Source of the DNA: a virus
DNA: 41,807 bases
IMG/VR virus record: IMGVR_UViG_3300032516_002998
Coordinates: 1 to 41,807 of that record
Direction: 5' to 3' (one strand)
The notes under the pieces were generated by a model. That model worked only from the letters and a program-made list of their open reading frames with translations, was not told where the DNA came from and ran no database searches. Position numbers and translations under genes: made by a program. Shown here in pieces: positions 853 to 35,088 of this stretch (its first letter is position 1; every line of letters begins with the position of its first letter).

Positions 853-1281
853 TTATTCAGCGTTATTGACATCGCGCTTAAATTTTAACAGCGCTGCATG
901 AACATGCTTGCATGTTAGATATTTGTACTCTGGATCCCTAACAACAGGATCACTTAAATCTGAACGTTGTCGCTCACTGCATCCATTAAGAGCAGCATTA
1001 AAGTCTGGACCATTCCATTTCCAAAAATTGCATGTACAACTAATAAATGTATCTCTATCTTTGATTTTTCTCAACTTGTCATATTGCGCTTGTGTTAATT
1101 GACTACGAATTCGTGGTTGTATCTTTTTGAATTTAATTCTTACTGTGTAATCACCTACATTATAGACCCATGTATTATTACTAGATCTAACGAACAATGG
1201 ACTGTACTCTTTAGCCTTACTTTTGATTTCAGCAGGCGCTCGACTTATTAATTCTGCTATAGTCATTGCTAGTTTTATCAT
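853..1281 (-). CDS. SWIM-type zinc-finger protein of the head gene cluster
   Basis: A 142-residue protein whose ATG overlaps the portal stop (ATGA), so it is probably translationally coupled to the portal; an AAAGG lies 9 bases upstream. The C-terminal half carries CxC (C82, C84), a 39-residue spacer and then CxH in TCKHVHAA (C124, H126). This is the CxCx(n)CxH pattern of SWIM zinc fingers, with a spacer longer than usual. The N-terminal part is a basic alpha/beta-looking segment without a family I recognise. SWIM fingers bind nucleic acid or protein partners. Lying between portal and protease suggests a packaging or head-assembly role, but that is inference from position. Confidence 0.72.
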   Translation of the reverse strand: MIKLAMTIAELISRAPAEIKSKAKEYSPLFVRSSNNTWVYNVGDYTVRIKFKKIQPRIRSQLTQAQYDKLRKIKDRDTFISCTCNFWKWNGPDFNAALNGCSERQRSDLSDPVVRDPEYKYLTCKHVHAALLKFKRDVNNAE

Positions 1282-4352: not shown

Positions 4353-4659
4353 TTTTCTTCTCCTCGGCTAATTTTTCAAGATTCTGTGCAACTATTAGTC
4401 CATGTATTTGTATGCTACAATCATTAACTAATGACTGTAATTCATATTTCAAATCCTCAGTGCCTTGTATTAGACTTGAAATAGCTTGTCGTAATCTATT
4501 TTTACGATACGTTATCTCAATGGGCAATTCATTTGCAAAACTACTTGCAACTAACAATTGCGCTAAAAATGATTCAGCTGTTACAGGCAGATCACTTAAT
4601 GTTTTACTAGCTTTTCGTCTATGCTCCTGATACAATTTAACTTTTTCATGATAATTCAT
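4294..4659 (-). CDS. Hypothetical helical protein between TerL and acidic protein
   Basis: A 121-residue protein, mostly predicted helix, rich in Lys, Glu and Leu with a basic C-terminus (RLVRRSNFKRKS). Its ATG overlaps the terminase stop (CGATGA) with TAGGG upstream, so it is probably coupled to terminase translation. The last 59 bases overlap the acidic gene in another frame. No family recognised. Position suggests a head-assembly or packaging accessory; size alone does not allow calling it a small terminase subunit. Confidence 0.65.
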   Translation of the reverse strand: MNYHEKVKLYQEHRRKASKTLSDLPVTAESFLAQLLVASSFANELPIEITYRKNRLRQAISSLIQGTEDLKYELQSLVNDCSIQIHGLIVAQNLEKLAEEKKNETKSISRLVRRSNFKRKS

Positions 4660-6572
4660 CGACGTATCCCTAGTCGTCTAGCTAACATCAACTTATCCAT
4701 TGACGACATTGAACTAACTGATGCATATGATCTTCTGCCACTTAAATTAATGCCTGCTGATTGAGCATGACTAGCAACTGAAACAGAAATAGATGATATA
4801 CTAGCTGATGATTTTTCCATTTCATTTTCTAGTGCTATTGATACTGCGTTCGCTAATACGTCTGCTAAGTCGTCAGTTGTTACATCGCCAGTCTTCGGTG
4901 CTTCAACCACAAACTGCTTTTTTCCAACCTTTTTCTCTTGTAAATACACTAATTCTTTTATTCCATCTTCATTATGCAAAAGAGCTAGTCGCTTATCATA
5001 TATAATAGACCGCAAATTCTTATAGATTTTCATATTATATTGACGTGAAAAATGCGTCTTAATAGCATCAATACCAGCCTTTATGAACTTCTGTATTGAT
5101 GCAGCTGATTCAAATTGGTCATACACGATCTTATCAACTCTGAACCTCTTAGTCAAATCCATAACATAATTGTCAATCAACTCAATATCTATAAAGTCAT
5201 ACTCTGAAAATTCAGGGTCATTGATCGACCACTTTCTCCACTTGTCAACTACAACTATCAATCTATTATGCTCATCGCGCTCACAATGAACCATTGCCAA
5301 TGAATATCCATTTTCTTGAACAGCAGGGTCAAGAGCTATATAATATCTGTGACGACCTGTCGCATATTCTGTTTCTTGTCTATAAACAGGTGCTTTTTTA
5401 GACTCGTTATTCTCATCAACATAATCTGTATACCCTAAAACACTAACGCACTCATGTATCTTTTCTGGGAACTTAAAGAATCCTGTAATCGTTGTTGAGA
5501 ATTGCGCACCATATTCTGTCCAGAATGATTCAGTATCTTTCTTGTATCTATTCTTGAGAAAGTCATCTTCAATCTTGGGATTCATTTCCCAAGTTGGCAA
5601 TTGCAACATTCTCATACTCTTGTCTTCAAACGAACTACAATAGAGTTCGTAAAATACACCACTCTTAGTATACGGACTTGATATACATATAATCTTACTA
5701 TCTTTTCCGAATGTAGCTCCTGATGGCGTTAAGCCTTCATAAACTTTCTTGCCACCTCGGTTACCTTCATTATCTACAAAGTGCGCTAGCTCATCAAACA
5801 GCGCAACAATTACAGATCCACCGCGTGATCCTCTTGCAGAACAAAGTAATGATTCAATTCGTATAGTTGATCGCTTCTTTAATGGTTGTCCATACCTCTT
5901 CTTCTCATCATTCATCTTCTTAAGATCGTGCTTAGTCCTCAAATTTATCTCAGAATCATTGAAGCTAGCTATATACGGCAAGAACCACTCAGAATTGAAT
6001 ATTCTGTTTTGAATCTGTGTTGCAAGTTCTAATGCTTGATCTCCGCTAGATGCTATGTTTACAATCTTAATGACTTCATCTTCAGCCATTGAATAGTAAG
6101 CTTGCGGATTGTCTTTAATGATTAACTTATATGACTCATATGCTGAAATGATTGATGCTAGAAATGTTTTTCCACCTCTTCTGCCGCAAGCCAAAAGTAA
6201 TTCACTAGCAGCGCAGTTCAGTAAATCGTCAATTAATGTTAAGTTGCATCTTCTCTGATTTATCAAAAATAACACATATTCTTTTTCAGTTAGAAGCTTG
6301 AAATTACTAGTCTGAGGAAATGACTTTAACTTGATACACTTTTCTTGATCATCTAACGGTAACCCATAAAAAAACTTCAATATGAATCGTTGCGGCGGTT
6401 GCAGTGTCTTAATGTTTAGATAATACGGTGATTGAACAAACGTCAATATATCTACTAACTCATCCTCTTTAATGATAGATGTGATGAACTCATTAAAGAT
6501 TTCTTCAAAAGAAGATGCAGTGTTTGATTCTTTTGATTCAATCTGTACTAATTTCGGTTTAATTGTAGCCAT
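4656..6572 (-). CDS. terL: Terminase large subunit (DNA packaging ATPase/nuclease)
   Basis: A 638-residue packaging motor. The ATPase domain has a Walker A-like ACGRRGGKTF (128-137, K135) and Walker B ALFDEL (D260, E261), with a coupling-motif candidate at ISSPYTKSG (about 297-305). The C-terminal RNase H-like nuclease domain shows the expected acidic residues: D415 in YIALDPA, D485 in VYDQFES and an Asp cluster in TTDDLADVLA (about 566-575). The C-terminal 50 residues are Ser-rich, perhaps a portal-contact tail. The ATG lies one base after the sigma-factor stop with no clear Shine-Dalgarno, so coupling is likely. No intein or intron is visible. No separate small subunit is recognisable in the window. 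Confidence 0.93.
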   Translation of the reverse strand: MATIKPKLVQIESKESNTASSFEEIFNEFITSIIKEDELVDILTFVQSPYYLNIKTLQPPQRFILKFFYGLPLDDQEKCIKLKSFPQTSNFKLLTEKEYVLFLINQRRCNLTLIDDLLNCAASELLLACGRRGGKTFLASIISAYESYKLIIKDNPQAYYSMAEDEVIKIVNIASSGDQALELATQIQNRIFNSEWFLPYIASFNDSEINLRTKHDLKKMNDEKKRYGQPLKKRSTIRIESLLCSARGSRGGSVIVALFDELAHFVDNEGNRGGKKVYEGLTPSGATFGKDSKIICISSPYTKSGVFYELYCSSFEDKSMRMLQLPTWEMNPKIEDDFLKNRYKKDTESFWTEYGAQFSTTITGFFKFPEKIHECVSVLGYTDYVDENNESKKAPVYRQETEYATGRHRYYIALDPAVQENGYSLAMVHCERDEHNRLIVVVDKWRKWSINDPEFSEYDFIDIELIDNYVMDLTKRFRVDKIVYDQFESAASIQKFIKAGIDAIKTHFSRQYNMKIYKNLRSIIYDKRLALLHNEDGIKELVYLQEKKVGKKQFVVEAPKTGDVTTDDLADVLANAVSIALENEMEKSSASISSISVSVASHAQSAGINLSGRRSYASVSSMSSMDKLMLARRLGIRR

Positions 6573-6573
6573 A

Positions 6574-7920
6574 TTAATTCAAATACTGCTTTGCTGCATC
6601 TCTATGAAAACAATCTTTACCACAACTACATACGATCTGGTTTGCAAACTTCTTTACTACAAACTTGTCATCCATCAATATCGAATCTTTAGAAATCTTT
6701 ACAACACTATCTGGTACATAAGCAAATCTAAGATGCTTATTATACGACTTGATTATTCTTAGAATTGATGATGAATGCCTTAATCGCTGTATGTCTTTAT
6801 TCTGTCGCAATCTAGCTTCTGCTCTATCTATTTCGCGCGTAACTGTCGATCTCGGCATGCCCAATATCTCAGAAATTTGTCGAGGATTTAATTGTTCACC
6901 TTCAAAGTATCCTTCGGGCAATTCACTTTGCGGCATATAACCAAACTTTAGTTTCAAAACCTTTTCTTTTGTTTCATCTCCAATAGACTCTATACTTTTC
7001 AATATCGTCTCTCTTAAGTCCTTTTGTATTTGCTCTTCTTCAGGCGTTGGCAATATTTCTGCTGCACCTTGCTCTACCTTTGAAGGTCCTAATACTTCAT
7101 GTACATCTCTACCCTCACTACCACCGCCTTCATCAATCTTTTCTTCCAAACTTATTACACCGCTTTGTAACAATGCAGAAATTTCAGCTGCATCTGTAGT
7201 AACGTTTTCTTTCTTATTAATTTCTCTAGCCATTTGATCATAATCTTGTGGTGCGTCGCCGTGTTCTTGATGATAATTGTTCACATATCGTTGTATAGCT
7301 CTAAGTTTCTCGCGCTCTTTTGAATCCATTGATATAGAAGATCTGTAAATGTCTCGGGCTTTTGCTTTTAGTTGCTGATACAAAGTAGTATTTATGTAAC
7401 TAACTATTCCTTGATTGTCTGGCTGGGCATTTGTAAGCGCTCTAAAAAATATCTGTGACGCTTGCTGTTTAATATCTTCCATGTCTTGTCTTGTAGTATG
7501 ATATTTGCGAGACCCAATTACTTTTGAAATTGTGTTAGCTATTGTTGGAAAGAAATTGTTGTACAGTCGTATAAATGATTGATCAGATTTTCTAGATGCA
7601 GCTTTTAGCTGTGTCTGTTCAGCATCTGTCAAATCTTTTGTATTAGATTTATCTGTTAATTGGTTAATGATTTGATATGCTGTCTGAAAGTCTTTTATTT
7701 CAGCTTGAATTTGCGGAATCGGCATGAACTCGTTTTTTGTAGCTTTTTGTGGTGCATATTTTGCCTGTTCATGAGGCGGTAATGATCGAATCTTTACTCG
7801 AGTTTGTTTACCGCCAGGAGTAGTATGCATCACATATTGGTCGCGCCAATCAGCTGCATGCTTGGTCATTTCGTGTCGTAAAACACTAGCTAACTTTGAT
7901 GAAATCAAAATCTTGAACAT
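6574..7920 (-). CDS. Sigma-70-family transcription factor with C-terminal SWIM-like Cys/His tail
   Basis: A 448-residue protein. Residues about 115-195 look like sigma region 2 (SFIRLYNNFFPTIANTISKV ... QASQIFFRAL ... IVSYINTTLYQQLKAKARDI). Residues about 205-262 resemble region 3. Residues 305-372 form region 4 with an HTH (LNPRQISEILGMPRSTVTRE). These would bind host RNA polymerase and promoter DNA. The N-terminal 60 residues are unfamiliar. A roughly 65-residue extension after region 4 ends in CSCGKDCFH (C431, C433, C437, H439), a compressed SWIM-like CxCx3CxH. AAGGA lies 6 bases before the ATG. Position upstream of terL suggests control of late head genes (inference). Divergence from bacterial sigmas means cognate promoters cannot be predicted here. 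Confidence 0.82.
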   Translation of the reverse strand: MFKILISSKLASVLRHEMTKHAADWRDQYVMHTTPGGKQTRVKIRSLPPHEQAKYAPQKATKNEFMPIPQIQAEIKDFQTAYQIINQLTDKSNTKDLTDAEQTQLKAASRKSDQSFIRLYNNFFPTIANTISKVIGSRKYHTTRQDMEDIKQQASQIFFRALTNAQPDNQGIVSYINTTLYQQLKAKARDIYRSSISMDSKEREKLRAIQRYVNNYHQEHGDAPQDYDQMAREINKKENVTTDAAEISALLQSGVISLEEKIDEGGGSEGRDVHEVLGPSKVEQGAAEILPTPEEEQIQKDLRETILKSIESIGDETKEKVLKLKFGYMPQSELPEGYFEGEQLNPRQISEILGMPRSTVTREIDRAEARLRQNKDIQRLRHSSSILRIIKSYNKHLRFAYVPDSVVKISKDSILMDDKFVVKKFANQIVCSCGKDCFHRDAAKQYLN

Positions 7921-7923
7921 TTT

Positions 7924-8322
7924 CTATCCTTTCAGAGCGTGATCTAGCTCTTGCTTTTTTGTCACTCCTGCTTCAGCTTTTGCTTTACTAATTGCACTAT
8001 ATGCTTCACTTTGTCTATTCAATAAGCCAGCGATGCGTTGACTTTCTTTTTGTTTCAATTCTGGTTCCGAAACTATACCAAACTGTTCTTTGTTTCGCTT
8101 GTTTTTACGTTCTTCAATTGCTGCCCATCGTCGTTCAGCATCTGCTCCAATAACTGTATCAATTGAAGAATTCGTACTGCCTTTGACAACAAATGCAGTA
8201 GCAGACATTAATTTCTCAGATTCAGCACCACATGCTGGACAATTTGACTTAAAATCATCAACTGATTTCATTTCCTCAAATTCAAGACTGCAGCTCTTAC
8301 ATACGAATTCATAAATAGGCAT
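7924..8322 (-). CDS. FmdB-type zinc-ribbon protein (132 aa)
   Basis: The N-terminus MPIYEFVCKSC matches the FmdB/CxxC_CXXC regulatory-protein family, with zinc ligands C8, C11, C28 and C31. After the ribbon comes a Ser/Thr-containing segment and a charged, probably helical tail rich in Lys, Glu and Ala. I chose the ATG at 8322, not the one at 8328, because GGGAG sits 6 bases upstream of it. It lies 3 bases from the sigma-factor gene and is likely in the same operon, so a transcriptional accessory role is attractive. The family has no firmly established biochemical function, so this remains inference. Confidence 0.8.
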   Translation of the reverse strand: MPIYEFVCKSCSLEFEEMKSVDDFKSNCPACGAESEKLMSATAFVVKGSTNSSIDTVIGADAERRWAAIEERKNKRNKEQFGIVSEPELKQKESQRIAGLLNRQSEAYSAISKAKAEAGVTKKQELDHALKG

Positions 8323-8342
8323 ATGCATCTCCCTTCATTTTA

Positions 8343-9165: not shown

Positions 9166-9354
9166 TTAAACGTAAATTCTTAACTTCGTACGACCCTTAT
9201 ACCTAACTTGAAAACAATCAGTACAAACTATCTCACCATACGCAACCTCAATAATCTCTTTTGATTTCTTGTCAACTAACTCTATTACAATACGAATCAT
9301 TGCATCTTTTATCTCTTTGCAGTCGGGACATCTGAGACCGGTTTTTGCATACAT
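9166..9354 (-). CDS. Small zinc-ribbon protein (62 aa)
   Basis: Two CxxC knuckles, CPDC (C9, C12) and CTDC (C44, C47), flank a beta-rich, Ile/Val-rich core, the layout of a stand-alone zinc ribbon. GGAG lies about 10 bases before the ATG. It is the first gene after a 113-base gap and appears to lead the operon of membrane protein, FmdB ribbon and sigma factor. Similar phage ribbons often touch RNA polymerase or nucleic acid, but no specific family is recognised. Confidence 0.7.
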   Translation of the reverse strand: MYAKTGLRCPDCKEIKDAMIRIVIELVDKKSKEIIEVAYGEIVCTDCFQVRYKGRTKLRIYV

Positions 9355-18238: not shown

Positions 18239-18399
18239 AATACTATAGTCATGTAGACTGGCATAGAAAACATCTAAAACCTATCCACAGTCCTGGTATT
18301 CAACTAACCAATAGAATCTATCATTTACCGGTACAATCATGGAATTTATGTCAAACGACAAATCAATAGCTGTAGATAATTTTGCATTGACAATTTGAT
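18239..18399 (-). other. 161-base intergenic region with possible regulatory motif
   Basis: The largest non-coding gap in this half. The minus strand contains TTGACA near 18355, the 8-base palindrome TACCGGTA (18326-18333) and GGTAAATGATA (18319-18329), which recurs before the kinase gene. A short frame (18281-18361, TTG start, 26 codons) reads like protein at its end (NDRFYWLVEYQDCG) but has no ribosome site. No terminator hairpin found. It probably holds the promoter for the gyrase block. Confidence 0.35.
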
Positions 18400-18663
18400 T
18401 TACTGGAGATCGCCGAGCGTTGTAACCGGCTTATGATGATCTTTGGCTTTTTGACCTTTGTGAGCGCTTTTCTTTGTCATAGAATTCTTGAATCTTGCAT
18501 CAGCAGACGGCCAACCACCGCCCTTGAATACTACTCCTGTGCCGCCAGTAACAATACGTTGCATTGTTTGAGAACATTTGCTGCAAGTCACAACAGGATT
18601 TTCAGTCATTCCATGAATTTCTTCTTGTACATTACCACACTCACATCGATAATCATAAATCAT
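18400..18663 (-). CDS. FmdB-type zinc-ribbon protein (87 aa)
   Basis: The N-terminus MIYDYRCECG with C7, C9, C27 and C30 followed by TGVVFKGGGWPSADARF matches the FmdB family layout (ribbon then a Phe-Lys-Gly-Gly segment). The C-terminus is basic and Lys/His-rich. The ATG at 18663 is preceded by GGGAG about 9 bases upstream; an in-frame TTG at 18681 is less likely. It closes the kinase/radical SAM/UDG operon. It is a second FmdB paralogue in the window, shorter than the one by the sigma factor and quite different after the ribbon. Confidence 0.82.
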   Translation of the reverse strand: MIYDYRCECGNVQEEIHGMTENPVVTCSKCSQTMQRIVTGGTGVVFKGGGWPSADARFKNSMTKKSAHKGQKAKDHHKPVTTLGDLQ

Positions 18664-18677
18664 TTGAATCTTCTCCC

Positions 18678-19097
18678 TCAATAGTTTGAGATACTTCTAA
18701 GTAATCTATCTCTATTCTTCAAAAAGACTTTGAATTCAATGTGTCTAACTTCACTACTAGTTTTAGAATTTTGCAAAATGTCAACCAAGTCATCAACTGA
18801 CTCAGGCACATCTATTACTCCAATGCTAATCAATTCATCTTTTGCATCACTTGTATTAAGATGACTAACGGTCTTTTCAAGTACGTGAATACTTTTGTCA
18901 GTCAATCTAATTTTCTTACCATAGCACTCTGACTTTTTGCCTACTATGAATAGCCATTGATTGCCGCCGCCTTCACCTTTGCATATCTTTTTGTACAATT
19001 CAGATCGAATCTTTGACCAAAATCTATCTCTAAGCAATGATGGCACTTCATTATCCTCTTGATCAAATTCATTCATGTACATCCATGAATTATCCAT
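18678..19097 (-). CDS. Hypothetical protein (139 aa)
   Basis: A charged protein with an acidic N-terminus (MNEFDQEDNEVPSLL), a predicted alpha/beta middle and a basic C-terminus (FLKNRDRLLRSISNY). A Gly-rich turn (GEGGGNQWLFIVG) precedes a beta strand. The start overlaps the stop of the preceding gene (ATGGATAA), indicating translational coupling. No family or catalytic motif recognised. Its place in a tightly coupled cluster with the UDG-like and radical SAM genes suggests a shared programme only. Confidence 0.6.
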   Translation of the reverse strand: MDNSWMYMNEFDQEDNEVPSLLRDRFWSKIRSELYKKICKGEGGGNQWLFIVGKKSECYGKKIRLTDKSIHVLEKTVSHLNTSDAKDELISIGVIDVPESVDDLVDILQNSKTSSEVRHIEFKVFLKNRDRLLRSISNY

Positions 19098-19648: not shown

Positions 19649-20250
19649 TTTTTAATGCTGTCTGCAATGCTATTTATGTAGCCCTGTCTCTCAGACTCTG
19701 GCATATATGTATAAATGTAACTCGGATGATGCGAATAGACTATAGGTACGTTTGGTTTTAACCGTTTGACTATTCCTTTTGCAACAGTACCAAATGTAAC
19801 AATGACTTGCATTTTCTGTAACAATTCTATACGCATTGATAAAAATGGCAAACAATTCGCAACTTCATCAATTTGAGGTTTGCGATAATTCGGCGGACTA
19901 CAGCAAACTACGTTAAAGTGCTGTATATCATTCCACGTCAAATTTGCTTTACTGTATATTTCAAAAAGTCTAGAGCCTATTAGCGCGATATTTTGAATTC
20001 TATCATCGTATATCTTATGAAAGTCTTCAAGCTTATCAATTAATCTTTCGCATTTATGAGGCTTGTATACTCCTGGTGCCTCACATATTGAACAAACTCT
20101 AGCATTAGCATAGTGCGTTGCGTCAAATCCAAGAACAGGACAATTGTGAGTTTTACTTTGTCTTAATTCAAACAGTTCTTGACATTTATTACAATTGAAT
20201 ATCTGCTGTTCAACTTCATTAACCTTTTGCTGCAATAAAGAAAATTTCAT
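19636..20250 (-). CDS. Family-4-like uracil-DNA glycosylase homologue (putative Fe-S protein)
   Basis: A 204-residue protein. CNKC (C20, C23) plus C117 and C133, 15 residues apart, match the four Cys that hold the 4Fe-4S cluster of family 4 UDGs. ICEAPG (55-60) corresponds to the GEAPG active-site motif, CSPPNYRKP to the 'PP.NR.P' segment, and SHHPSY (173-178) to the HPS motif. About 25 extra residues follow EAPG, and the normal acidic/Gly motif (EDxxGxPFxG) is not recognisable; extra Cys (C37, C53, C56, C67) lie nearby. It may excise or recognise an altered base, or it may be a non-catalytic relative. Start overlaps the radical SAM stop (ATGA). Confidence 0.78.
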   Translation of the reverse strand: MKFSLLQQKVNEVEQQIFNCNKCQELFELRQSKTHNCPVLGFDATHYANARVCSICEAPGVYKPHKCERLIDKLEDFHKIYDDRIQNIALIGSRLFEIYSKANLTWNDIQHFNVVCCSPPNYRKPQIDEVANCLPFLSMRIELLQKMQVIVTFGTVAKGIVKRLKPNVPIVYSHHPSYIYTYMPESERQGYINSIADSIKKCLM

Positions 20251-21332
20251 AGAAATATCGGATCAGTCACTCGCTTGTGCTTATTTAGATGTGCATTAAT
20301 ATGATCAAATCTGTCGCAATACTGACACATTTCGTATTTCTTATCACAGTTAAGAAACTGATCTACAACTGTCTTATATCGATCACTAGAGTAAATTTCT
20401 GATAACGTACTTTCATTAACATTGCCAATAACGAAATTTGTCTGTTGTTTGTCAATTGAAAATACTGGTTCATATGCATAGCAGCACGGAAACACATTGC
20501 CATCAGAAGCTATTAATGCAAATACTTGAGGAATGAAACATGAATGGTAGTTGCCAGTCACTCTATCATCAAAGTGAGAAAAAACGTTACTAAAGTTGCG
20601 AAGCCTAACACTGAGCAGCTCCTTGCTAAAGACGCTGCCAAAAATTGCTTTACCATCATCTGAATCTATTCGTTGCTGTCTATTTTCAAATTGCCTTAGT
20701 CGAGCAATTATTTCTCTTGATAACCAGAAAAATATTTCGACATCAATGTTGTTTTTGTCTAAAAACTCTGCTAATCCGTCTGTGAAATTGTGCTTATTAT
20801 AGTCATGTATTGTGACGTTCAATCTAGTCTTGCACTTTGTCTTCTTATTCTCTTCTAATAAAGTCAACAGATTTCTTGTCCACTGATCAAGCATATCGAC
20901 ACCACGAGTTTCAGCATAATTTTCTGGTGTAAACCCGTCAGTTGAAAATCTGATCCAGCTGCAATCTCTAGACAATGATGCCCAATCTAAACTAGCGCGA
21001 CCTAATCCTGATGAAATTATACCGATATTCAAACCATATTCTTGCTTGATTTGATGAACTATCTGCTCAACATCAGGATGAAGTAATGGTTCTCCGCCCG
21101 AAAGAACTATTGATTGTAGTGAATCAAACTCTTCTAAGTAAGGTAAAACGTTCTTATCTAGTATTTCACGACTAAGTTTTGTTTTAGTTGGCCATTTCCA
21201 ATGTTCACAACCTTTGCATTTACAAACGCAAAAGTCAGTGAGATCAAGCTGTAATGTCAATAGACATTGTTTATTGGATGATGTTATTCTATCAGCATGG
21301 TGTCTTACTTTTTCTTCGGCTGACAAACTCAT
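20247..21332 (-). CDS. Radical SAM enzyme with SPASM-like C-terminal domain
   Basis: A 361-residue protein. CxxxCxxC (C35, C39, C42 in CVCKCKGC) binds the radical SAM 4Fe-4S cluster, and LSGGEPLLHP (77-86) is the SAM-binding GGEP motif. The C-terminus has a second Cys set (C265, C283, C284, C329, C336, C339) with ASDGNVFPCC and IGNVNESTLSEIYSS, typical of SPASM/twitch domains that bind auxiliary Fe-S clusters. The ATG at 21332 follows AGGGAC and overlaps the kinase stop (ATGA); an in-frame start 13 codons upstream would lie inside the kinase gene. SPASM enzymes mostly modify peptides, but the partners here suggest nucleotide or DNA chemistry (inference). No short precursor peptide gene is obvious. 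Confidence 0.88.
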   Translation of the reverse strand: MSLSAEEKVRHHADRITSSNKQCLLTLQLDLTDFCVCKCKGCEHWKWPTKTKLSREILDKNVLPYLEEFDSLQSIVLSGGEPLLHPDVEQIVHQIKQEYGLNIGIISSGLGRASLDWASLSRDCSWIRFSTDGFTPENYAETRGVDMLDQWTRNLLTLLEENKKTKCKTRLNVTIHDYNKHNFTDGLAEFLDKNNIDVEIFFWLSREIIARLRQFENRQQRIDSDDGKAIFGSVFSKELLSVRLRNFSNVFSHFDDRVTGNYHSCFIPQVFALIASDGNVFPCCYAYEPVFSIDKQQTNFVIGNVNESTLSEIYSSDRYKTVVDQFLNCDKKYEMCQYCDRFDHINAHLNKHKRVTDPIFL

Positions 21333-21868
21333 GAAATGTCCCTCTGTATAAATTCCAAAGCGATATCGCAAACTTCTAATTTGCTAAAACTACCAGTATC
21401 AATAAGTACTGACGGAATCAATGTCGCATTATGCGCTTTTTCAAATGCTAATGTCAATGTATCATAATCATCTTTGCAATACTTACTATTTTTCTCTTGT
21501 AACCTACTAAGCATAATATCATAGCTGCATGTCAAAACAATCACTCTGACATTACACTTAGATAAAGCTGTATCTATCATTCTAAAGTGCTTGAAAGCTT
21601 TAATCTCATCTGCATGACGAATAACAGTACTGTATGCGTATTCAGACATGTGAAGTCTATCAAACAAAACATCATTCGTTGACAATTCTTTTGCAAACCA
21701 CGAAATAGAACAGTTAACACCAAATGAAAAATCTGTCACTTGCGCATTAGCTGAGTCAACTAAATCAGGAAATGCTCGTCTGCAAGAAAATACTTTGAAT
21801 TTATTACTCAATGATTCAACTAATGTAGTCTTGCCAGTGTTGTGAATTCCCTCGATTATCAAGAACAT
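21329..21868 (-). CDS. P-loop nucleotide kinase (thymidylate/deoxynucleoside kinase-like)
   Basis: A 179-residue kinase. Walker A is GIHNTGKTT (7-15), close to the GxxxxGKT of thymidylate and deoxynucleoside kinases. LFDRLHMSEYAYS (68-80) matches their DR(S/H) substrate-binding motif. A LID-like Arg/Lys segment lies at SRLQEKNSKYCKDD (about 125-138). Length is short compared with cellular TMP kinase (about 210). AAAGG precedes the ATG. First gene after the tail-fibre terminator, it probably opens the coupled cluster with the radical SAM and UDG-like genes. The substrate could be dTMP, a modified nucleotide or a base in DNA; sequence alone does not decide. Confidence 0.82.
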   Translation of the reverse strand: MFLIIEGIHNTGKTTLVESLSNKFKVFSCRRAFPDLVDSANAQVTDFSFGVNCSISWFAKELSTNDVLFDRLHMSEYAYSTVIRHADEIKAFKHFRMIDTALSKCNVRVIVLTCSYDIMLSRLQEKNSKYCKDDYDTLTLAFEKAHNATLIPSVLIDTGSFSKLEVCDIALEFIQRDIS

Positions 21869-26957: not shown

Positions 26958-29900
26958 TTAAACAAAGAGTGAATAAGTATAAGTCAAAGTCAAGTTCTTG
27001 GTTGCATCTGCTGCTGCAAAGATGAACACACCATTCGATCCAAAGGAGTATTCACCTGTACCTGGTGTAAGTACCGCTATACGCCATACGGGACCAAAAG
27101 CATAACCTCCATTAAGGAAGTCGATTGGTGTATTGGCTATAGCATCTGCATAGGTTGCTGCCAATTTGATATGGGTGACATCCACGTTAATTGCATAATA
27201 GATACCCCCATCCACAAGAGGCGTCGGAAACATAAAAACAGAGTAGTTTGTTTCCGTGTGATACAACTTCACAGGTGTACCTGTCGCGATATTAAGCCCA
27301 CAAGCAATAGTATCGTTTGGTAGATCGGATACTGACCATGTACTCGTAATTGTGGGTGTATACTCAGTATACGCTGTTACACCTTCCATTACTTTGACTA
27401 CCATTGCGTCAGGATCAGTTGCCCGAAAATCTGGATCAGTTGTTTCCGTTACATGACATACAAAGGGGACAGAGGCAGGAACTGCGAAGGCTATGGCATC
27501 TGCGACATCCACGGGAACGTGATAATTCTTAGCTGCTACGCTGATCGTTTGCAGATTATCTTTGATCTTGTTTGGACCGTGAACCCAAGTGAAACGATCG
27601 CCCGATACAAACTGCTGATCCCAGGGTTTACCAGTTGCATTGTTGAAAGCAACACTAACTCCTTGCAATAATGCTGTCGCGCCTGTCTTTGGTATTGGAC
27701 GATCCAATATATTGTCTTTAATCCAATTCGCACCATCCCAACCAAATGGAGTTACAATACCCAAAGCACTATTGTATTGTATGGCATTGAAGAAATTTAT
27801 CGCTACCAAAATACCATTACCTAAATCGATAGTATTGTGAAGCATGTGAGTTATTACATGGGACGCACCTGTCGCACCTGTATACGCATTCCCTAAAAAA
27901 AATGACTCGGGTGACCATGCAACATAATATGAATTATACACAGCCACAGGGGTCGATCCTATAACATAAGTACATCCGTATACATAACCACTATCATTTT
28001 GGAAATTGAACATAAATACAGAGTCTGAGATTTGGGCGATAGAGACATAATACTGTAGATTCCCTAGACCGAAATTCCCAGTGTAAGTAGTAACAACAGT
28101 GCCGGAGTTAAGTCCTAAAACTGTTACATCATACACATTATAATTAGTCGCTGTTAAATCTACTATTTGATTTGTGCCTTTTCTAAGACAACCATTTCTG
28201 GCGTATGAAGTGCCACCAAAAGAACACCAACCTATACTATTCCCATCATTGGCTTCGTCCTGAAGTACCCATGCCTTTACTACATCGGTAAACCATTGAT
28301 CGTGAGCACCACCGTTATAGTAGGCACCGTCTCTTATTACACGACCATTATAAGCTTCTAACTGTCCCGTAGCAATATGTACCATACCCGCAGTCATACC
28401 TTCAAGTTTCTGACCTGTACCCGTGATGTATTGAGTTGCTGTCAATGCGCCCAAATCAATCTTGCTAAGACCTGTAGTGTGACCTGACCACATATAAGTT
28501 GAAATTGGATCGTAAGCCAGATCATAGACATTATTATCAATGATACCCGTAACGGTTAAAAGGGATGGAGCTACTGTAGGTGTAGTAGTATCATACAAGT
28601 AGATTCCGTCGGATGTTGCAATGTAAACATCGGTACCTACTTTAATCATTCGGTATGCTTTAGTCCCTGTTGTTCCAAACTTACACAAGGCCTCGGATGT
28701 TTCGATAGTCCAAAAACGCCATCGGCATACATTCTGTAATTGAGTTGATCTACTCTTTTGGATTGTGTAGATGAAATCCCCAACTTGGATCTGATCCTCT
28801 ATCATATTGTCATATCGAAATGGCCAAACCTCATCTTCTGCCCTCGCTCCATTTACCCCATAACCCTGATCACTCAAAGAATGCGCCTGCATCTTATTGT
28901 CTACGTCAACACCCATACTCAGTTGAGATAGAGGATACCCATTCCAAGTCCTATACTGATAAGCCCAAGGCTCCAATTCAAGTGAGAACCTGCCTGTATT
29001 CTGTCGGATAATAGTATGAGTGCCTGTACCTTGATCTGAAATCGTGATAGATAAACCACCCAGAGAAGTAGAAAGTTGGATGGTGGTTCCTGCCTGAATC
29101 ACATAGTAATCCACACCAACAGAAATTCCAGTGGGAAGTGCCCCTCCTGAGTTAGTGAAACGAACAATGTCATCTAATGCAAAAGATTGGGCGATTGTAA
29201 TTTCGTTTGTACCTGTATTTACTGCAGCAGGTAAAAATGTCTCATCCACAATATCAGAAGCGTCGCCTGTTTTTGTGATCCTCACGCGACCAATAATTGG
29301 ATGTTTGTTTGTAGGTGTACCTGATAAAGCAACCGTTCCTTGTGAATTCGGTGGGTAAGCTGGATCACTAAAGACCTGAGCTATACGACTAGCAGGGTGC
29401 GTAAACACACGAGAAATAGCAGGACCAAAATCGGATGGGATAGAATATCCAATAGTCATTGCCATGTCATAAGGATCAGCCTCTCGAACTGGTAATCCAA
29501 AAACGAATATCCCAAGTGGACCCACCAACTGTGTTGTAGTATAATTATCCACCCACTTTTGGCCGTAGCATGGACCTGACCATTCAATAGCCGAAGAATT
29601 GGCTAATCGCCATATATGTCGCATTACCTTATCTTTGTCAGTCGGAGGATTGAATGGACATAACCCTTGTACGCCTGCACCACTAAAAGCCCAATTGGAT
29701 TTATAGAGTAGGTTTTGAGTAACCCTACGTTGAATGTAACGATTATCTGGAGAATTATAACCCCCAGCTACAAAACTATAAAATACAGTGTATTTAACAA
29801 AAAGATACTGGTTAGTTTGTTGTGTGATTGGGGTAGATAATTCAATAAAAGATGCATACTCGTAAGGATGAGCTTCAGTTACATTATGACTAGAGCCAAT

Positions 29901-30257
29901 AATTTTTATTGTACGTGGCGATATAGGAGTAGCAAATAAATACTGGGCTACTGCAGTATTGACTATTTTGTCAAGAGTTGGTTCTAAATATCCCACCCTG
30001 CCATTAGTTAAGGTGTTGATACGCCGGTATGGCGCGTATCGTTGGCGAAGATCACCAACAGGGGCAGTGTCACCGGAGAGATGAATCGACCTATAGTGTT
30101 GTTGATTGCCACCCGGTGGTATAAATACATAGGGTCCTTGCCAACCACCAAGAGCCAGTATCATTTGATCGGTAGAAGTATTCCATTGGGAACCCTCAGC
30201 CACAACTTTATCATTTTCAATTAGCTTCCACTCATACAAACCTTTGTTCTTGAACAT
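26958..30257 (-). CDS. Large tail fibre protein, cassette B (1,099 aa)
   Basis: Paralogue of the 1,066-aa protein at 31888. Both open with KGLYEW(K/E)L and QWN, share PITQQTNQYL(F/Y)VKYT, carry an almost identical block of about 100 residues (FLPAAVN to GTGTHTI), share SEALCKFG and a probable propeller (YIATSDGIYLYDTTTPTVAP, GHTTGLSKIDLGALTATQYI), and end ADATKNLTLTYTY. The C-terminal 250 residues include repeat-like segments with DATHIK(L/F)A. AGGAG precedes the ATG. G+C looks higher than in neighbours on sampled lines (about 45-50% against about 40%), hinting at transfer. Likely a receptor-binding or structural fibre; receptor unknown. Confidence 0.76.
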   Translation of the reverse strand: MFKNKGLYEWKLIENDKVVAEGSQWNTSTDQMILALGGWQGPYVFIPPGGNQQHYRSIHLSGDTAPVGDLRQRYAPYRRINTLTNGRVGYLEPTLDKIVNTAVAQYLFATPISPRTIKIIGSSHNVTEAHPYEYASFIELSTPITQQTNQYLFVKYTVFYSFVAGGYNSPDNRYIQRRVTQNLLYKSNWAFSGAGVQGLCPFNPPTDKDKVMRHIWRLANSSAIEWSGPCYGQKWVDNYTTTQLVGPLGIFVFGLPVREADPYDMAMTIGYSIPSDFGPAISRVFTHPASRIAQVFSDPAYPPNSQGTVALSGTPTNKHPIIGRVRITKTGDASDIVDETFLPAAVNTGTNEITIAQSFALDDIVRFTNSGGALPTGISVGVDYYVIQAGTTIQLSTSLGGLSITISDQGTGTHTIIRQNTGRFSLELEPWAYQYRTWNGYPLSQLSMGVDVDNKMQAHSLSDQGYGVNGARAEDEVWPFRYDNMIEDQIQVGDFIYTIQKSRSTQLQNVCRWRFWTIETSEALCKFGTTGTKAYRMIKVGTDVYIATSDGIYLYDTTTPTVAPSLLTVTGIIDNNVYDLAYDPISTYMWSGHTTGLSKIDLGALTATQYITGTGQKLEGMTAGMVHIATGQLEAYNGRVIRDGAYYNGGAHDQWFTDVVKAWVLQDEANDGNSIGWCSFGGTSYARNGCLRKGTNQIVDLTATNYNVYDVTVLGLNSGTVVTTYTGNFGLGNLQYYVSIAQISDSVFMFNFQNDSGYVYGCTYVIGSTPVAVYNSYYVAWSPESFFLGNAYTGATGASHVITHMLHNTIDLGNGILVAINFFNAIQYNSALGIVTPFGWDGANWIKDNILDRPIPKTGATALLQGVSVAFNNATGKPWDQQFVSGDRFTWVHGPNKIKDNLQTISVAAKNYHVPVDVADAIAFAVPASVPFVCHVTETTDPDFRATDPDAMVVKVMEGVTAYTEYTPTITSTWSVSDLPNDTIACGLNIATGTPVKLYHTETNYSVFMFPTPLVDGGIYYAINVDVTHIKLAATYADAIANTPIDFLNGGYAFGPVWRIAVLTPGTGEYSFGSNGVFIFAAADATKNLTLTYTYSLFV

Positions 30258-30265
30258 AGCTACTC

Positions 30266-31600
30266 CTATGTATTTACGAGAGTCATTGTGGCGTTGTATC
30301 CAGCACCTACTTGGAATGCAGGTATAGTATCCTGTTCAAAGTCTCGCGATTCTTCGTACTCGAAAGTCTTGGTAAGTTGTCCCACAGATCCCATACCTAC
30401 TTGGAATGCAGGTATAGTATCCTGTTCGAAATCCCGTGTCTCTTCATACTCTAATGTCTTAACGATTTGTCCGAACTTTGCGCCGGAAGATGTAAAAGTA
30501 ACAGGTTCCGTAATGATTTGTGCATTCTCTGTATTGTCAACAGTTTCCTGATACTCAAAAGGATCATATATAAAAACTTGCTTGTACCCAAAAGAGGGTG
30601 TAAAATATTCCCCACCCATTAATGGTGTAAAACACCGCACTCGAATATATTTCAAACCGAGGGAACCTGTCCATTGACGCCAGCGTCCATACGAGTCGTT
30701 ACTATTAATGGTAACTGAGTCTTCAGTTACAAAAGTAGACCCGCTAAGATGCCCGATTTCTATTGTGTATGGATACTTAAGATATTGAAGATAACTTCCA
30801 ATTATGTATGGAATATAAATGAAAGGTTCATAGGCACTAATTACATATTGGAAGCTAAGTCCTGTTACACTCAATGGAAACAATTCGACATCAACTATCG
30901 CCTGAGATGAGGAATCTCCAGCACCGACATTAAATTCTATTGATGCTTGAGGGTCACGATTCAAATGAATGGTATTAGGATCTTGAATATACGTATTTGG
31001 AACATATCTCCAAGATAATTCATCTGATGTATTAAAAATTCTAAGATATACTGTACTATCTTTCTTATATTGAAGATAAATTTTGTCTAAAACTTGATCA
31101 TAAAATGCAGTAGGCTGTTCACCGGTGTTTACAATATATTCTTGATTAGTCCACTGCCATACTGATGCAACTAATTCCTGTTTTTGAGTATATATATAGT
31201 AGCCAGTTTTTTCAACTTCTTCTAATCGAGTTATCGCAGAACTACCTGTATAAACATACGCAAGAACTATAGCTGATGCAATCGTCGTCATATCCCAAGA
31301 CACGTCTGTATGTATCGTACCTGAAGAATCAACATACACGATAGTAAATGAATCAGCAGTTATTGGTAATGAAACAGCACTCCATGAAATAGCAATTTCG
31401 TTTAATGTGCCGTTACCTGCTTCAACATTTATAGTAAATGGCACTGTAAACGTTACTCGTGAATTGCTCGTCCTACCAGATGCAAATTGCTTTGTGTAAA
31501 ACGCAAATTTTTGTCCAGTAGGTTTAATAACCAATGACGGATGACTAACAGATCTTCCATCATCAGTTTCAACAGTGAGTTTAGTTGTTATCTTGTCCAT
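30266..31600 (-). CDS. Tail protein with C-terminal LEYEE repeats, cassette B (444 aa)
   Basis: Paralogue of the 449-aa protein at 35184. The N-terminus (KITTKLTVETDDGRSVS, GQKFAFYTKQFASGRTSNS) is almost the same in both, followed by a shared domain (EVEKTGYYIY, FYDQVLDKIYLQYKKDSTVY). A variable beta-rich region lies at about 225-350. The end holds two copies of LEYEETRDFEQDTIPAFQVG-type repeats, about 30 residues apart, with a degenerate FEYQETVD upstream. Ribosome site weak; a candidate promoter lies just upstream. No named family is recognised. Gene order suggests it is a fibre connector or baseplate-proximal component. Confidence 0.7.
   Translation of the reverse strand: MDKITTKLTVETDDGRSVSHPSLVIKPTGQKFAFYTKQFASGRTSNSRVTFTVPFTINVEAGNGTLNEIAISWSAVSLPITADSFTIVYVDSSGTIHTDVSWDMTTIASAIVLAYVYTGSSAITRLEEVEKTGYYIYTQKQELVASVWQWTNQEYIVNTGEQPTAFYDQVLDKIYLQYKKDSTVYLRIFNTSDELSWRYVPNTYIQDPNTIHLNRDPQASIEFNVGAGDSSSQAIVDVELFPLSVTGLSFQYVISAYEPFIYIPYIIGSYLQYLKYPYTIEIGHLSGSTFVTEDSVTINSNDSYGRWRQWTGSLGLKYIRVRCFTPLMGGEYFTPSFGYKQVFIYDPFEYQETVDNTENAQIITEPVTFTSSGAKFGQIVKTLEYEETRDFEQDTIPAFQVGMGSVGQLTKTFEYEESRDFEQDTIPAFQVGAGYNATMTLVNT
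30305..30427 (-). repeat. Two direct 33-bp repeats at the 3' end of the cassette B 444-aa gene
   Basis: The 33-bp block at 30305-30337 is repeated exactly at 30395-30427, a 90-bp period equal to 30 codons. It encodes the DFEQDTIPAFQVG part of the tandem LEYEE protein repeat. Exact identity at DNA level means recent duplication or continuing gene conversion; the period keeps frame. Confidence 0.85.
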
Positions 31601-31887: not shown

Positions 31888-34800
31888 CTACGAAAATAGT
31901 GTGTAAGTATACGTTAACGTCAAATTCTTAGTTGCATCAGCTGTTGCAAAAACAAACACTCCATTTACACTGGCATAATATGTCCCAGTAGTCGGTTCTA
32001 CAACTACAACTCTAACAGTTCCAGAAGTATTAGCAGCTGACAAATCTATTGCAGTAGTTGCTAGTGCGTCTGCATATGATGCTGCAAATTTTATGTGCGT
32101 CGAATCATCTCTAATTGCATAAAAAATTGCTTCACCTTTCATTTGAATTGAATGACTAGAAAACGGAGCATAAGACGGAAAGTTACCGGTAGTAGTTAAT
32201 ACGATCGCAGTACCTGTTGCTATATCTTGAGCAATTGTAACTTTATCATTTGGCAAATCCCAACCAGTTATTGCAACGCCTACAGGCAAAGTATATAAAG
32301 TGTATTGAGTCACTCCTTCATAAACATCAGTCAGATAATCCAAAATATCCATATCTCTAAAATCTGGATTACTCTTTTCTTCAATGTTAAATTCGTAGGG
32401 CACAGACGCCGGAATAGTTATTGCTTTATTCTCGTGAACTTGAGCATCTCCATAATAAAATCTAGCTTGTGCTTGCATAGTCTGCAAATTATCTTTTATC
32501 TTAACTGGTGCATACACAAAAGTAAATCTTTCACCTAGCACAAATTGTTGATCCCAAGTTTTTCCAGTAGCATTATTAAAACTAAGAATTATACCATCAA
32601 GAATTGTCTCTGTTGCTGTTTTTGGCATGTATTTTTCACCTGAATTATCTAGAACCCAATTTGCACCATTCCAACCATAAGTCGCACGAAGAGCTCCCTG
32701 ATACTCAATAGGAGTAAGTACCCCGTCACCCAAAGCCTGACCTATACATAAACCACTGTCATTTACAGCCACAACATTTTTAGAAAGCGAATATTCCCAA
32801 GGTGTTGCATATAAAAACCCAGCGTATGCTGGGTCCACGTCAGTAGGGTCAGTCCAGACTCCTTGACCTACTCTATAAACAGCTAAAGCAGTGCGCGCTC
32901 CTGAATAATATTGAACACTGTGCTGAAACATAAACGCATCTTTGTTTAGACTTACCATAGGTCCATAAGTAGAAGCATTATTATTTGAAAATGCGTATGT
33001 TTCAGTAACTGTATTACTTCCTGTTCCTTTTCCTGTTACCATAACATTATACAAAGTAACCCAACTTCGACCACTACCCACAACTTGACTTGTTCCCTTT
33101 CGAATAGCTCCTCGTGAACAAGTTCCCCACTTATACCAACCTACACCGTCATCCATAACCCACATAGATTTACTATTTCTACCTGCTCTAAATATTCTAC
33201 TATTATATGCTTCAAGTTCACCTGCTACGATATTTACATCATCTGTCAGCATACCATCTAATTGCTCGCCTGTACCACTCAAATATTGTGTAGCTGTTAA
33301 AGCACCAACATCAATTTTAGATAAACCCGTTGCATGGCCTGTCCACAAATATCCAGTAATTGAATCATAAACCATATCAGTTATAGCCGTACCAATCATA
33401 CCTGTAATGGAAAGTAATACAGGAGCCACAGCTGGAGTAGATGTATCATACTTGTATATGCCGTCATTTGATGCAATGTACATGTAAGTACCATCATTTT
33501 CAACACGAACAATATCGGTCGATGCGTTGCCAAACTTACACAATGCTTCTGACGTTTCGATGCTATTAAATAGCCATTTACACATTTGCATTAAGTTTGT
33601 TACAGCGCTTCGCTGCACTGTGTATAAATAATTTCCAATACGAGCAACACCTCGAACCATTGATCCTACATTTGCTGTTCCGCCCTCACCAGTATCATAA
33701 AGTGAGTATACATTGTGTGGCATGATATTGTTGTCTATATCAATTCCCATAGAAATCTGCAAAATACGAGAAGATGTATAAGATCTACCAGAACGTATCC
33801 CATTTATCCAGGGTTCTAATTCTATTTGAAATTTTGCAGTATTCATTCGATAAATAGTATGTATGCCTGTGCCTTGATCAGAAATTGTTATAGATAATCC
33901 ACCAAATGAAGTCGACAACTTAACTGTCGTGCCAGCCTGAATCACATAATAATCTATACCAACAGATATACCAGTAGGAAGCGCTCCTCCTGAATTAGTA
34001 AATCTAACAATATCATTCATGGCAAAAGACTGTGTTATAGTAATTTCATTTGTTCCGACATTTACTGCTGCAGGTAAAAATGTTTCATCAACAATGTCAG
34101 ATGCATCGCCAGTACGCGTGATCTTGACTCTAGCTATGATAGCCCATTTGTTCGTAGGAGTACCACTGGGAACAATAGTACCGTTAGATGATGCAGGGTT
34201 TGCAGGGTCACTAAATATTTGGTTAATGTTTGCACTTGGATGAACAAAAACTCTAGAAATACTTGGCGCAAGAGCAGACATTGGTGAATAGCCATACGTT
34301 ACCCAGTCCCACCAACCAGAAGAGCTATTTAATTCCAATGCGTTTGAAAATGTTATAGCACCGATAGGGCCAACGACATCACCAACTGCAAACGATTTTG
34401 ATATTTTTCTAGAATACTGTGATCCAGAATTAGGACTAACAAAATCTGATCCACTATAAATTGAACCTGTTCCAGTGTTACCTGTTCTGCGCATTACTTT
34501 ATCAATATCTGACGGTGGCACAAACTGTGTAATATTCCATTTGAAATAAGTAGCATGACCAAACATTAACGCTGTTCCGCCGACTATGCCATTATTCATG
34601 CCCCATTCTACATATCTATTGTCTGGAACATTAACACCGCCACTAGAATAACTGAAATACATAGTGTACTTAACATAAAGATACTGGTTTGTTTGTTGTG
34701 TTATCGGCACAGACAACTCAATAAACGAATAGAAATTATCAGTAGATCCAATGCCTATAACATTAACAGTTCGTGGAGCTACAGGCGGCACAAAATTGTA

Positions 34801-35088
34801 TCCAACATAACAATTCTTTAGCACTGCACTTGAAGTAACAGCAATTGCACCCGACTGAACTAAAATATTAAAACTATTTGACATTCGTGCAGTACGATAG
34901 TCTGCTGATGGATTCGGTGTAGAATCTGACAATTGAATACTAAAAGAAAAATTTGATGGACTGTTATTAGTACACATTAATGTTAAAGCAAAGTCACTTA
35001 CAACATTCCATTGTTCGCCTTTTTTAACTATTTGCTGTGTGCTAGCATCTCGTAATTCCCACTCATATAGACCCTTTAACTTAACCAT
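31888..35088 (-). CDS. Large tail fibre protein, cassette A (1,066 aa)
   Basis: Paralogue of the 1,099-aa protein at 26958, with shared start (KGLYEWEL), PITQQTNQYLYVKYT, the near-identical FLPAAVN-to-GTGIHTI block, SEALCKFG, a propeller-like middle (YMYIASNDGIYKYDTSTPAV, GHATGLSKIDVGALTATQYL) and the end DATKNLTLTYTYTLFS. The first 300 residues outside these islands have diverged strongly, as have parts of the propeller tips, which is where receptor contacts would be expected. AAGGAG lies 6 bases before the ATG. A terminator-like hairpin and a candidate promoter lie upstream, so this gene may start its own transcript. Confidence 0.76.
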   Translation of the reverse strand: MVKLKGLYEWELRDASTQQIVKKGEQWNVVSDFALTLMCTNNSPSNFSFSIQLSDSTPNPSADYRTARMSNSFNILVQSGAIAVTSSAVLKNCYVGYNFVPPVAPRTVNVIGIGSTDNFYSFIELSVPITQQTNQYLYVKYTMYFSYSSGGVNVPDNRYVEWGMNNGIVGGTALMFGHATYFKWNITQFVPPSDIDKVMRRTGNTGTGSIYSGSDFVSPNSGSQYSRKISKSFAVGDVVGPIGAITFSNALELNSSSGWWDWVTYGYSPMSALAPSISRVFVHPSANINQIFSDPANPASSNGTIVPSGTPTNKWAIIARVKITRTGDASDIVDETFLPAAVNVGTNEITITQSFAMNDIVRFTNSGGALPTGISVGIDYYVIQAGTTVKLSTSFGGLSITISDQGTGIHTIYRMNTAKFQIELEPWINGIRSGRSYTSSRILQISMGIDIDNNIMPHNVYSLYDTGEGGTANVGSMVRGVARIGNYLYTVQRSAVTNLMQMCKWLFNSIETSEALCKFGNASTDIVRVENDGTYMYIASNDGIYKYDTSTPAVAPVLLSITGMIGTAITDMVYDSITGYLWTGHATGLSKIDVGALTATQYLSGTGEQLDGMLTDDVNIVAGELEAYNSRIFRAGRNSKSMWVMDDGVGWYKWGTCSRGAIRKGTSQVVGSGRSWVTLYNVMVTGKGTGSNTVTETYAFSNNNASTYGPMVSLNKDAFMFQHSVQYYSGARTALAVYRVGQGVWTDPTDVDPAYAGFLYATPWEYSLSKNVVAVNDSGLCIGQALGDGVLTPIEYQGALRATYGWNGANWVLDNSGEKYMPKTATETILDGIILSFNNATGKTWDQQFVLGERFTFVYAPVKIKDNLQTMQAQARFYYGDAQVHENKAITIPASVPYEFNIEEKSNPDFRDMDILDYLTDVYEGVTQYTLYTLPVGVAITGWDLPNDKVTIAQDIATGTAIVLTTTGNFPSYAPFSSHSIQMKGEAIFYAIRDDSTHIKFAASYADALATTAIDLSAANTSGTVRVVVVEPTTGTYYASVNGVFVFATADATKNLTLTYTYTLFS

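Follow-up and report, generated by a model that had tools for sequence, protein, structure and literature searches.

Gene neighbourhood of the sigma factor gene

We analyzed a 41,807-nucleotide stretch of viral DNA (IMG/VR record IMGVR_UViG_3300032516_002998, positions 1 to 41,807; hereafter the window) and found on its minus strand, at positions 6574-7920, an open reading frame for a protein of 448 amino acids, opposite a plus strand that was full of stops. Based on its translation, a match to PHROG 1740, a Foldseek search and an alignment of seven homologues, we annotated the frame as a sigma70-family gene with a C-terminal Cys/His tail. The gene for the terminase large subunit, terL (4656-6572, minus strand; PHROG terminase large subunit, E=2e-20), begins one base downstream, in line with the original prediction that the sigma gene directly precedes terL. 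On the other side, 3 bases upstream, lies a gene for an FmdB-type zinc ribbon protein (7924-8328, minus strand; Pfam Zn_ribbon_8, E=8e-12) that is kept in the relatives. Downstream of the portal gene, a separate protein with a CxCx(n)CxH arrangement and an n of 39 is encoded at 853-1281 (minus strand). Besides an alignment, we used the Pfam SWIM profile (cut-off 19.6), against which it scored 18.2 bits, while its close homologue L004 passed with 24.1 bits; the earlier description of this protein as SWIM-like thus holds.

The sigma gene belongs to a co-directional set that runs from gyrB, gyrA, an endonuclease-like gene, topA, a GNAT-like ORF and small zinc-ribbon proteins, through a 272-amino-acid protein with an N-terminal hydrophobic stretch, the FmdB-type zinc ribbon, sigma, terL, two small genes and portal, to the SWIM-like protein (the names gyrB, gyrA, topA and GNAT were assigned by eye). 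Since the gaps were at most 14 bases from a 62-amino-acid protein down to the SWIM protein, the genes in this part probably share a transcript; further upstream there are three wider gaps, of 113-198 bases. The IMG/VR record is a fragment, and its terL and portal were nearest to those of the huge phages LR745208 (uncultured, 485-kb), Bacillus phage G and Tunturi_5. Relatives were found on contigs of 330 kb and 416 kb, and the order from sigma through terL and portal to the SWIM protein was kept in every contig that has these genes. We also noted small zinc-ribbon-like proteins near the sigma and gyrase genes at 9166-9354, 7924-8328 and 18400-18681 (all minus strand), two of which are FmdB-like by look or by Pfam.

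Domain layout of the sigma protein

Sigma factors read promoters through their regions 2-4. PHROG 1740 (RNA polymerase sigma factor) matched residues 97-374 of the window protein with an E-value of 5.5e-6. Pfam Sigma70_r4 was found in six of the seven homologues; the window copy scored weakly (16.2 bits; cut-off 24.1), and homologue L022 passed (34.0 bits). Two homologues, L020 and L021, matched Pfam Sigma70_r2, both below the cut-off. When the predicted sigma structure was searched against BFVD with Foldseek, 12 matches had E-values below 0.001; those with names were sigma factors, with phage sigma factors at the top, and several were unnamed. The claim that the gene encodes a sigma factor is therefore borne out by the PHROG match, by the region 4 profile in L022 and by the fold, and the window protein can be placed among the sigma70-type factors, with a predicted role in transcription initiation together with the RNA polymerase core.

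The alignment and the Foldseek match to phage sigma factors make an assignment of regions 2-4 plausible. Region 2 covers residues ~96-199 (7324-7635, minus strand) with approximate boundaries, as placed by the alignment and the sub-cut-off matches of L020 and L021. Region 3 and a linker occupy residues ~200-292 (7045-7323, minus strand) between regions 2 and 4, an assignment based on the helices of the model and on a profile alignment to the sigma protein of a sister clade. Region 4, with its helix-turn-helix, was placed at residues ~293-374 (6799-7044, minus strand) on the strength of the Sigma70_r4 matches. These regions, the helix-turn-helix and the Foldseek and PHROG matches are shared with known phage and bacterial sigma70-family factors (PHROG 1740/351, Pfam Sigma70_r2/r4). 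Unlike those factors, the window protein adds an N-terminal module that also occurs on other phage proteins and a C-terminal Cys/His domain within the ~74 residues downstream of region 4.

Alignment of the homologues indicated that residues 1-60 (WRDQYVMHTTPGGKQTRVKIRSLPPHEQAKYAP; 7741-7920, minus strand) consist of a leader and a module that comes in two interchangeable kinds, A in the window protein or an unrelated B. Both modules occur on other proteins of related phages, and module B, with the pattern W..LS..Q..YL..HP.SKRR.T, is found in several of the sigma homologues. More than 50 unrelated ORFs in two large relatives (G002, L055-L075; G001, L076-L092) start with M[KN]H[LI]AxIQxEF[VIL]KxA, and in about 30 of them a module B of ~30 residues follows. 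The leader and module were absent from Pfam and the PHROGs, and a single weak match was obtained among isolate phages. T4 internal proteins have short N-terminal targeting leaders that are cleaved by the prohead protease (PMC9026906). By analogy, the leader that recurs on the ORFs of the relatives recalls a T4-like capsid-targeting leader or a sorting tag.

Conservation and predicted fold of the C-terminal tail

The tail domain comprises residues 383-448 (6577-6774, minus strand), with a net charge of +6, and ends in the putative metal site C431-S-C433-G-K-D-C437-F-H439 (6604-6630, minus strand). The translation gave the four ligands exactly where they had been predicted, with an n of 3, and the three cysteines of the tail are the only ones in the window protein. 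We compared seven distinct homologues, namely the window protein, L018, L021, L024, L022, L020 and L019; the six others were 37-68% identical to the window protein. The pattern CxCx(3-4)CxH was present in all seven, with an n of 3 in three and of 4 in four. Only 39 of the 377 ungapped columns of the seven-sequence alignment were invariant and the four ligands were among them, while none of the 33 other columns with any Cys or His was conserved, indicating that the conservation of the ligands is not a chance effect. The compressed motif that was originally noticed in one protein is thus a conserved feature of its homologues. The bare motif is in itself non-diagnostic, as the radical-SAM-like ORF at 20247-21371 contains CVCKCKGCEH, which matches CxCx4CxH.

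The tail is the most conserved region of the sigma protein, both by dN and by pairwise identity. Between the window protein and L018, dN was lowest in the tail (0.094), followed by region 4 (0.130), region 3 (0.206) and region 2 (0.335). Across all seven homologues the mean pairwise identity was highest in the tail (0.48 versus 0.38 for region 4), and the net charge of the tails ranged from +4 to +10. In the AlphaFold2 (AF2) model the tail has strands at residues 397-401, 406-410, 413-416, 420-425 and 428-431 and a helix at 438-447, such that CxC closes a strand and CxH opens the helix at C437-H439 (pLDDT ~75-85). The tail modelled alone gave a similar fold with a mean pLDDT of 77; the full-protein model had a pTM of only 0.38 with an alignment of seven sequences. 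In the structure prediction that had been proposed as a check, the ligands are therefore positioned suitably for a metal site, although the model contains no metal. Taken from sequence and model, the tail is a conserved basic C-terminal mini-domain that probably binds zinc.

Comparison of the tail with SWIM and other zinc fingers

The SWIM zinc finger was reportedly described by Makarova, Aravind and Koonin in 2002 (Pfam PF04434), and n ranges from 6 to 25 in the described members. The tail has the same CxC...CxH ligand order, and its AF2 model suggests a strand before CxC and a helix at CxH, which is the arrangement that a SWIM finger should have. It differs in an n of 3-4, where the SWIM-like proteins of this analysis have 8, 9 and 39 and glutamyl-tRNA synthetase (GluRS) has 24, and in being the terminal part of a sigma factor. 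None of the seven tails matched Pfam SWIM when the full-length homologues were searched at E-values up to 1-10. This is weak evidence, since two clear SWIM-like phage proteins with an n of 8 were likewise missed by the profile. When a profile of the tail was compared with phage SWIM proteins, each of the two ligand pairs, CxC and CxH, fell on its counterpart, at a non-significant E-value of 0.16. A Foldseek search with the tail gave no significant SWIM match either, a phage SWIM-type protein being fourth (E=0.87). We therefore filed the tail as SWIM-like and not as SWIM: the ligand order and the predicted layout of strand and helix agree with the earlier assignment, while membership of the SWIM family is not established given the missing Pfam match, the short n and the lack of a significant match by profile or fold. 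We also considered whether the tail and the neighbouring SWIM protein are mutual copies and rejected this, as a profile comparison of the tail with the neighbour gave no match and that with phage SWIM proteins gave the E-value of 0.16.

Searches beyond the SWIM family were similarly negative: the tail had no significant match to known zinc fingers by profile or fold, and no match in the PDB by sequence or by fold. PHROG 5768, which is without known function, matched the tails weakly (best E-value 4e-5). A tblastn search of isolate phages with the whole sigma protein gave no match. With the tail alone it returned matches at E ~1 in Erwinia and Salmonella phages, which we rejected because they correspond to a 63-amino-acid protein of a different zinc-ribbon-like family. 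This uncharacterised protein, encoded at 307-498 of L041 (Erwinia phage phiEa104) and in Felix O1-like phages, has CSCGCNCFH followed by CNGC (CxxC) and is probably a zinc ribbon.

A comparable zinc site is known from E. coli GluRS, in which 98-CxCx24CxH, classed as SWIM, binds Zn via three sulfurs and one nitrogen (PMC4381286). The kind and order of the ligands are those of the tail, and the GluRS site is experimental; GluRS differs in the long loop between the ligand pairs, in its binding of tRNA and in being unrelated to sigma factors. Among sigma factors with a fused zinc finger, the closest precedent is the ECF52 group of Actinobacteria, whose members carry a C-terminal zinc-finger domain (PMC5826349). 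Like the window protein they join a sigma factor to such a domain, but theirs is an anti-sigma-type zinc finger with another ligand pattern, accompanied by membrane and carbohydrate-binding parts in a cellular protein (PMC5826349). Pfam detected no anti-sigma-type zinc finger or transmembrane region after the sigma domains in any homologue, and the tail consists of 66 charged residues. Our literature searches turned up no sigma factor with a SWIM-type tail, in agreement with the novelty suggested at the outset. In a survey of 224 jumbo phage genomes (PMC7824862), the passages found on sigma factors mention no tail of this kind, and the word SWIM is absent from the text.

Distribution of the tail

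IMG/VR scans with the tail or the sigma profile returned matches confined to phages of the tail-bearing clade, and no relative was found among the GTDB genomes. Phage G, Tunturi_5 and LR745208 likewise lack the tail. In Bacillus phage G and Tunturiibacter phage Tunturi_5, both related huge phages, gp3 is annotated as a sigma factor near terL; unlike the 448-amino-acid window protein, these proteins (208 and 326 amino acids, respectively) have no Cys/His tail. Using portal and terL we found a sister clade in which terL is 47-48% identical and a sigma-like gene lies directly upstream of terL (L198, 8910-9977; L197, 8991-9980). The L197 protein matched PHROG 351 (E=2.5e-13), and the sister sigma was homologous to the window sigma over 245 columns (hhalign, E=2e-9). 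In both L197 and L198 the protein ends shortly after region 4 and lacks the Cys/His tail. The sister clade nevertheless retains the SWIM protein encoded separately close to portal (L198, 15374-15883), which indicates that the tail was gained or lost in a clade-specific manner and independently of its SWIM neighbour.

Candidate phage promoters

An ordinary sigma-70 promoter scan of the window performed no better than on shuffled sequences. In the 416-kb relative (G002), the motif TCTAYGA-N9-TGATTATA was present at 22 sites with a spacing of exactly 9 bp, as opposed to 1-4 sites at any other spacing, and it occurred in 12 of 187 intergenic upstream regions versus 0.32 in shuffles. Judged by its sequence pattern, this motif is a putative phage-specific promoter class with rigid spacing. 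The window has a promoter-like site, TCTATGC-N9-TGACTATA (18244-18267, minus strand; PWM score 14.2), upstream of the gyrB-gyrA-topA-sigma-terL-portal cluster and 13 bases before an ATG. Variants at the matching place were found in the window and in G003 (35772, plus strand), and in G002, whose sites include one at 40515 (minus strand), a site lies just before gyrB. The large relatives contain at least one further sigma-like gene; G002 has a 253-amino-acid region-2 sigma (PHROG 351) beside a primase-like gene (L114, 1093-1854, minus strand) and a protein with two helix-turn-helix units that resemble sigma region 4 (L101, 1219-2133, minus strand). Because of these genes, we rejected an assignment of the promoter to the tail-bearing sigma as unproven.

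At several sites an ATG is found exactly 13 bases after the start of TGATTATA, hinting at leaderless messages. A second promoter-like class was seen in G002 (L060-L062), for example near 107610, 134076, 136767, 137846, 143992 and 144041, with a GCCACATTTTGGACGC-type box, perhaps an activator site, ~31-32 bases before TGATTATA.

Proposed role of the tail

The explanation that we favour, with a probability of roughly 60%, is a sigma70-type factor with a zinc-held tail that adds a contact behind region 4. It builds on the sequence, its conservation, the synteny, the tail-less sister and the predicted fold; the zinc, the contact with DNA or protein and the promoters served are what we infer. A complete factor with regions 2-4 would direct the host RNA polymerase to phage-specific promoters. 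The C-terminal 66 residues would fold as a small basic domain whose strands end in CxC, with CxH starting the helix 3-4 residues on, and the four ligands would hold one structural zinc that maintains the fold of the domain immediately after region 4. In this position the tail would most likely stabilise promoter binding through a contact with upstream promoter DNA, with the RNA polymerase flap or with a phage partner. A metal-dependent tuning of promoter choice by the tail, as in the original prediction, is possible. In favour of the explanation we also counted the positive net charge of all seven tails, the zinc-binding CxC..CxH of GluRS and the candidate phage-specific promoters. Against it we counted the tail's lack of a zinc-finger match, the sister clade that manages without the tail, the extra sigma-like genes, the low pTM of the full-protein model and the alignment's size of seven sequences.

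The zinc itself might be doubted, with the Cys and His residues serving a disulfide or packing and resembling a finger in look only, as the missing profile and fold matches and the same bare pattern in a non-SWIM window protein would allow. We regard this as the least probable of the readings considered, since the three Cys and the His are strictly co-conserved across a variable inter-pair spacing, in a cytosolic protein that has no other conserved Cys or His. The tail could instead act as a zinc or thiol switch, an autoinhibitory built-in anti-sigma element from which region 4 would be freed by a redox or metal signal or by the binding of a phage partner. The position directly behind region 4, three Cys that could be redox-active, the zinc-ribbon and SWIM genes around the sigma gene and the C-terminal fusion in ECF52 (PMC5826349), which is comparable in principle, are consistent with a switch. 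We nevertheless consider it unlikely, as Pfam finds no similarity to an anti-sigma zinc finger in the tail, the CxC/CxH layout is unlike that of ECF52, and a gene in the terL cluster offers no obvious input for redox control.

Two further readings draw on the gene's place beside terL and portal. The protein might be packaged in the virion via an N-terminus that targets it to the capsid, as in T4, and leave the virion along with the DNA for immediate transcription, the zinc tail helping to retain it on DNA. The shared leader on more than 50 ORFs of two large relatives, ~30 of them with the module carried by several sigma homologues, and the T4 leaders that the prohead protease removes (PMC9026906) would fit such a route; the sigma's own leader, MFKILISSKL..., differs from the MKHL leader, however, and a leader could tag for something else, which leaves packaging quite unlikely. 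Its union with a zinc-clamped, promoter-contacting tail that one clade has gained and the sister lacks is an improbable idea, which if true would give a huge phage a new route to the immediate capture of host transcription. It had also been suggested that the tail links transcription to head assembly, and a physical coupling to packaging could run, for example, through binding of TerL or the neighbouring SWIM protein. The order from sigma to the SWIM protein is indeed conserved in every contig with these genes, but adjacency alone is weak evidence and the sister clade keeps both order and SWIM protein with a tail-less sigma; a head-assembly link through the tail is thus not supported and appears very improbable.

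Under the favoured explanation of a promoter-contacting tail, a metal-held domain behind region 4 would provide a new handle on the recognition of promoters and would mark how huge phages redirect the host RNA polymerase. The tail-less sister sigma in the same place is a natural control for the effect of the tail on promoter choice, and the candidate phage promoter in the same genomes makes that effect testable in vitro.

Other features of the window

Neither the Rfam search nor the tRNA search of the window gave a match. Similar long tail-fibre-like genes lie in tandem pairs on the minus strand, 26958-30257 corresponding to 31888-35088 and 30266-31600 to 35184-36533, in what is apparently a duplicated two-gene unit.
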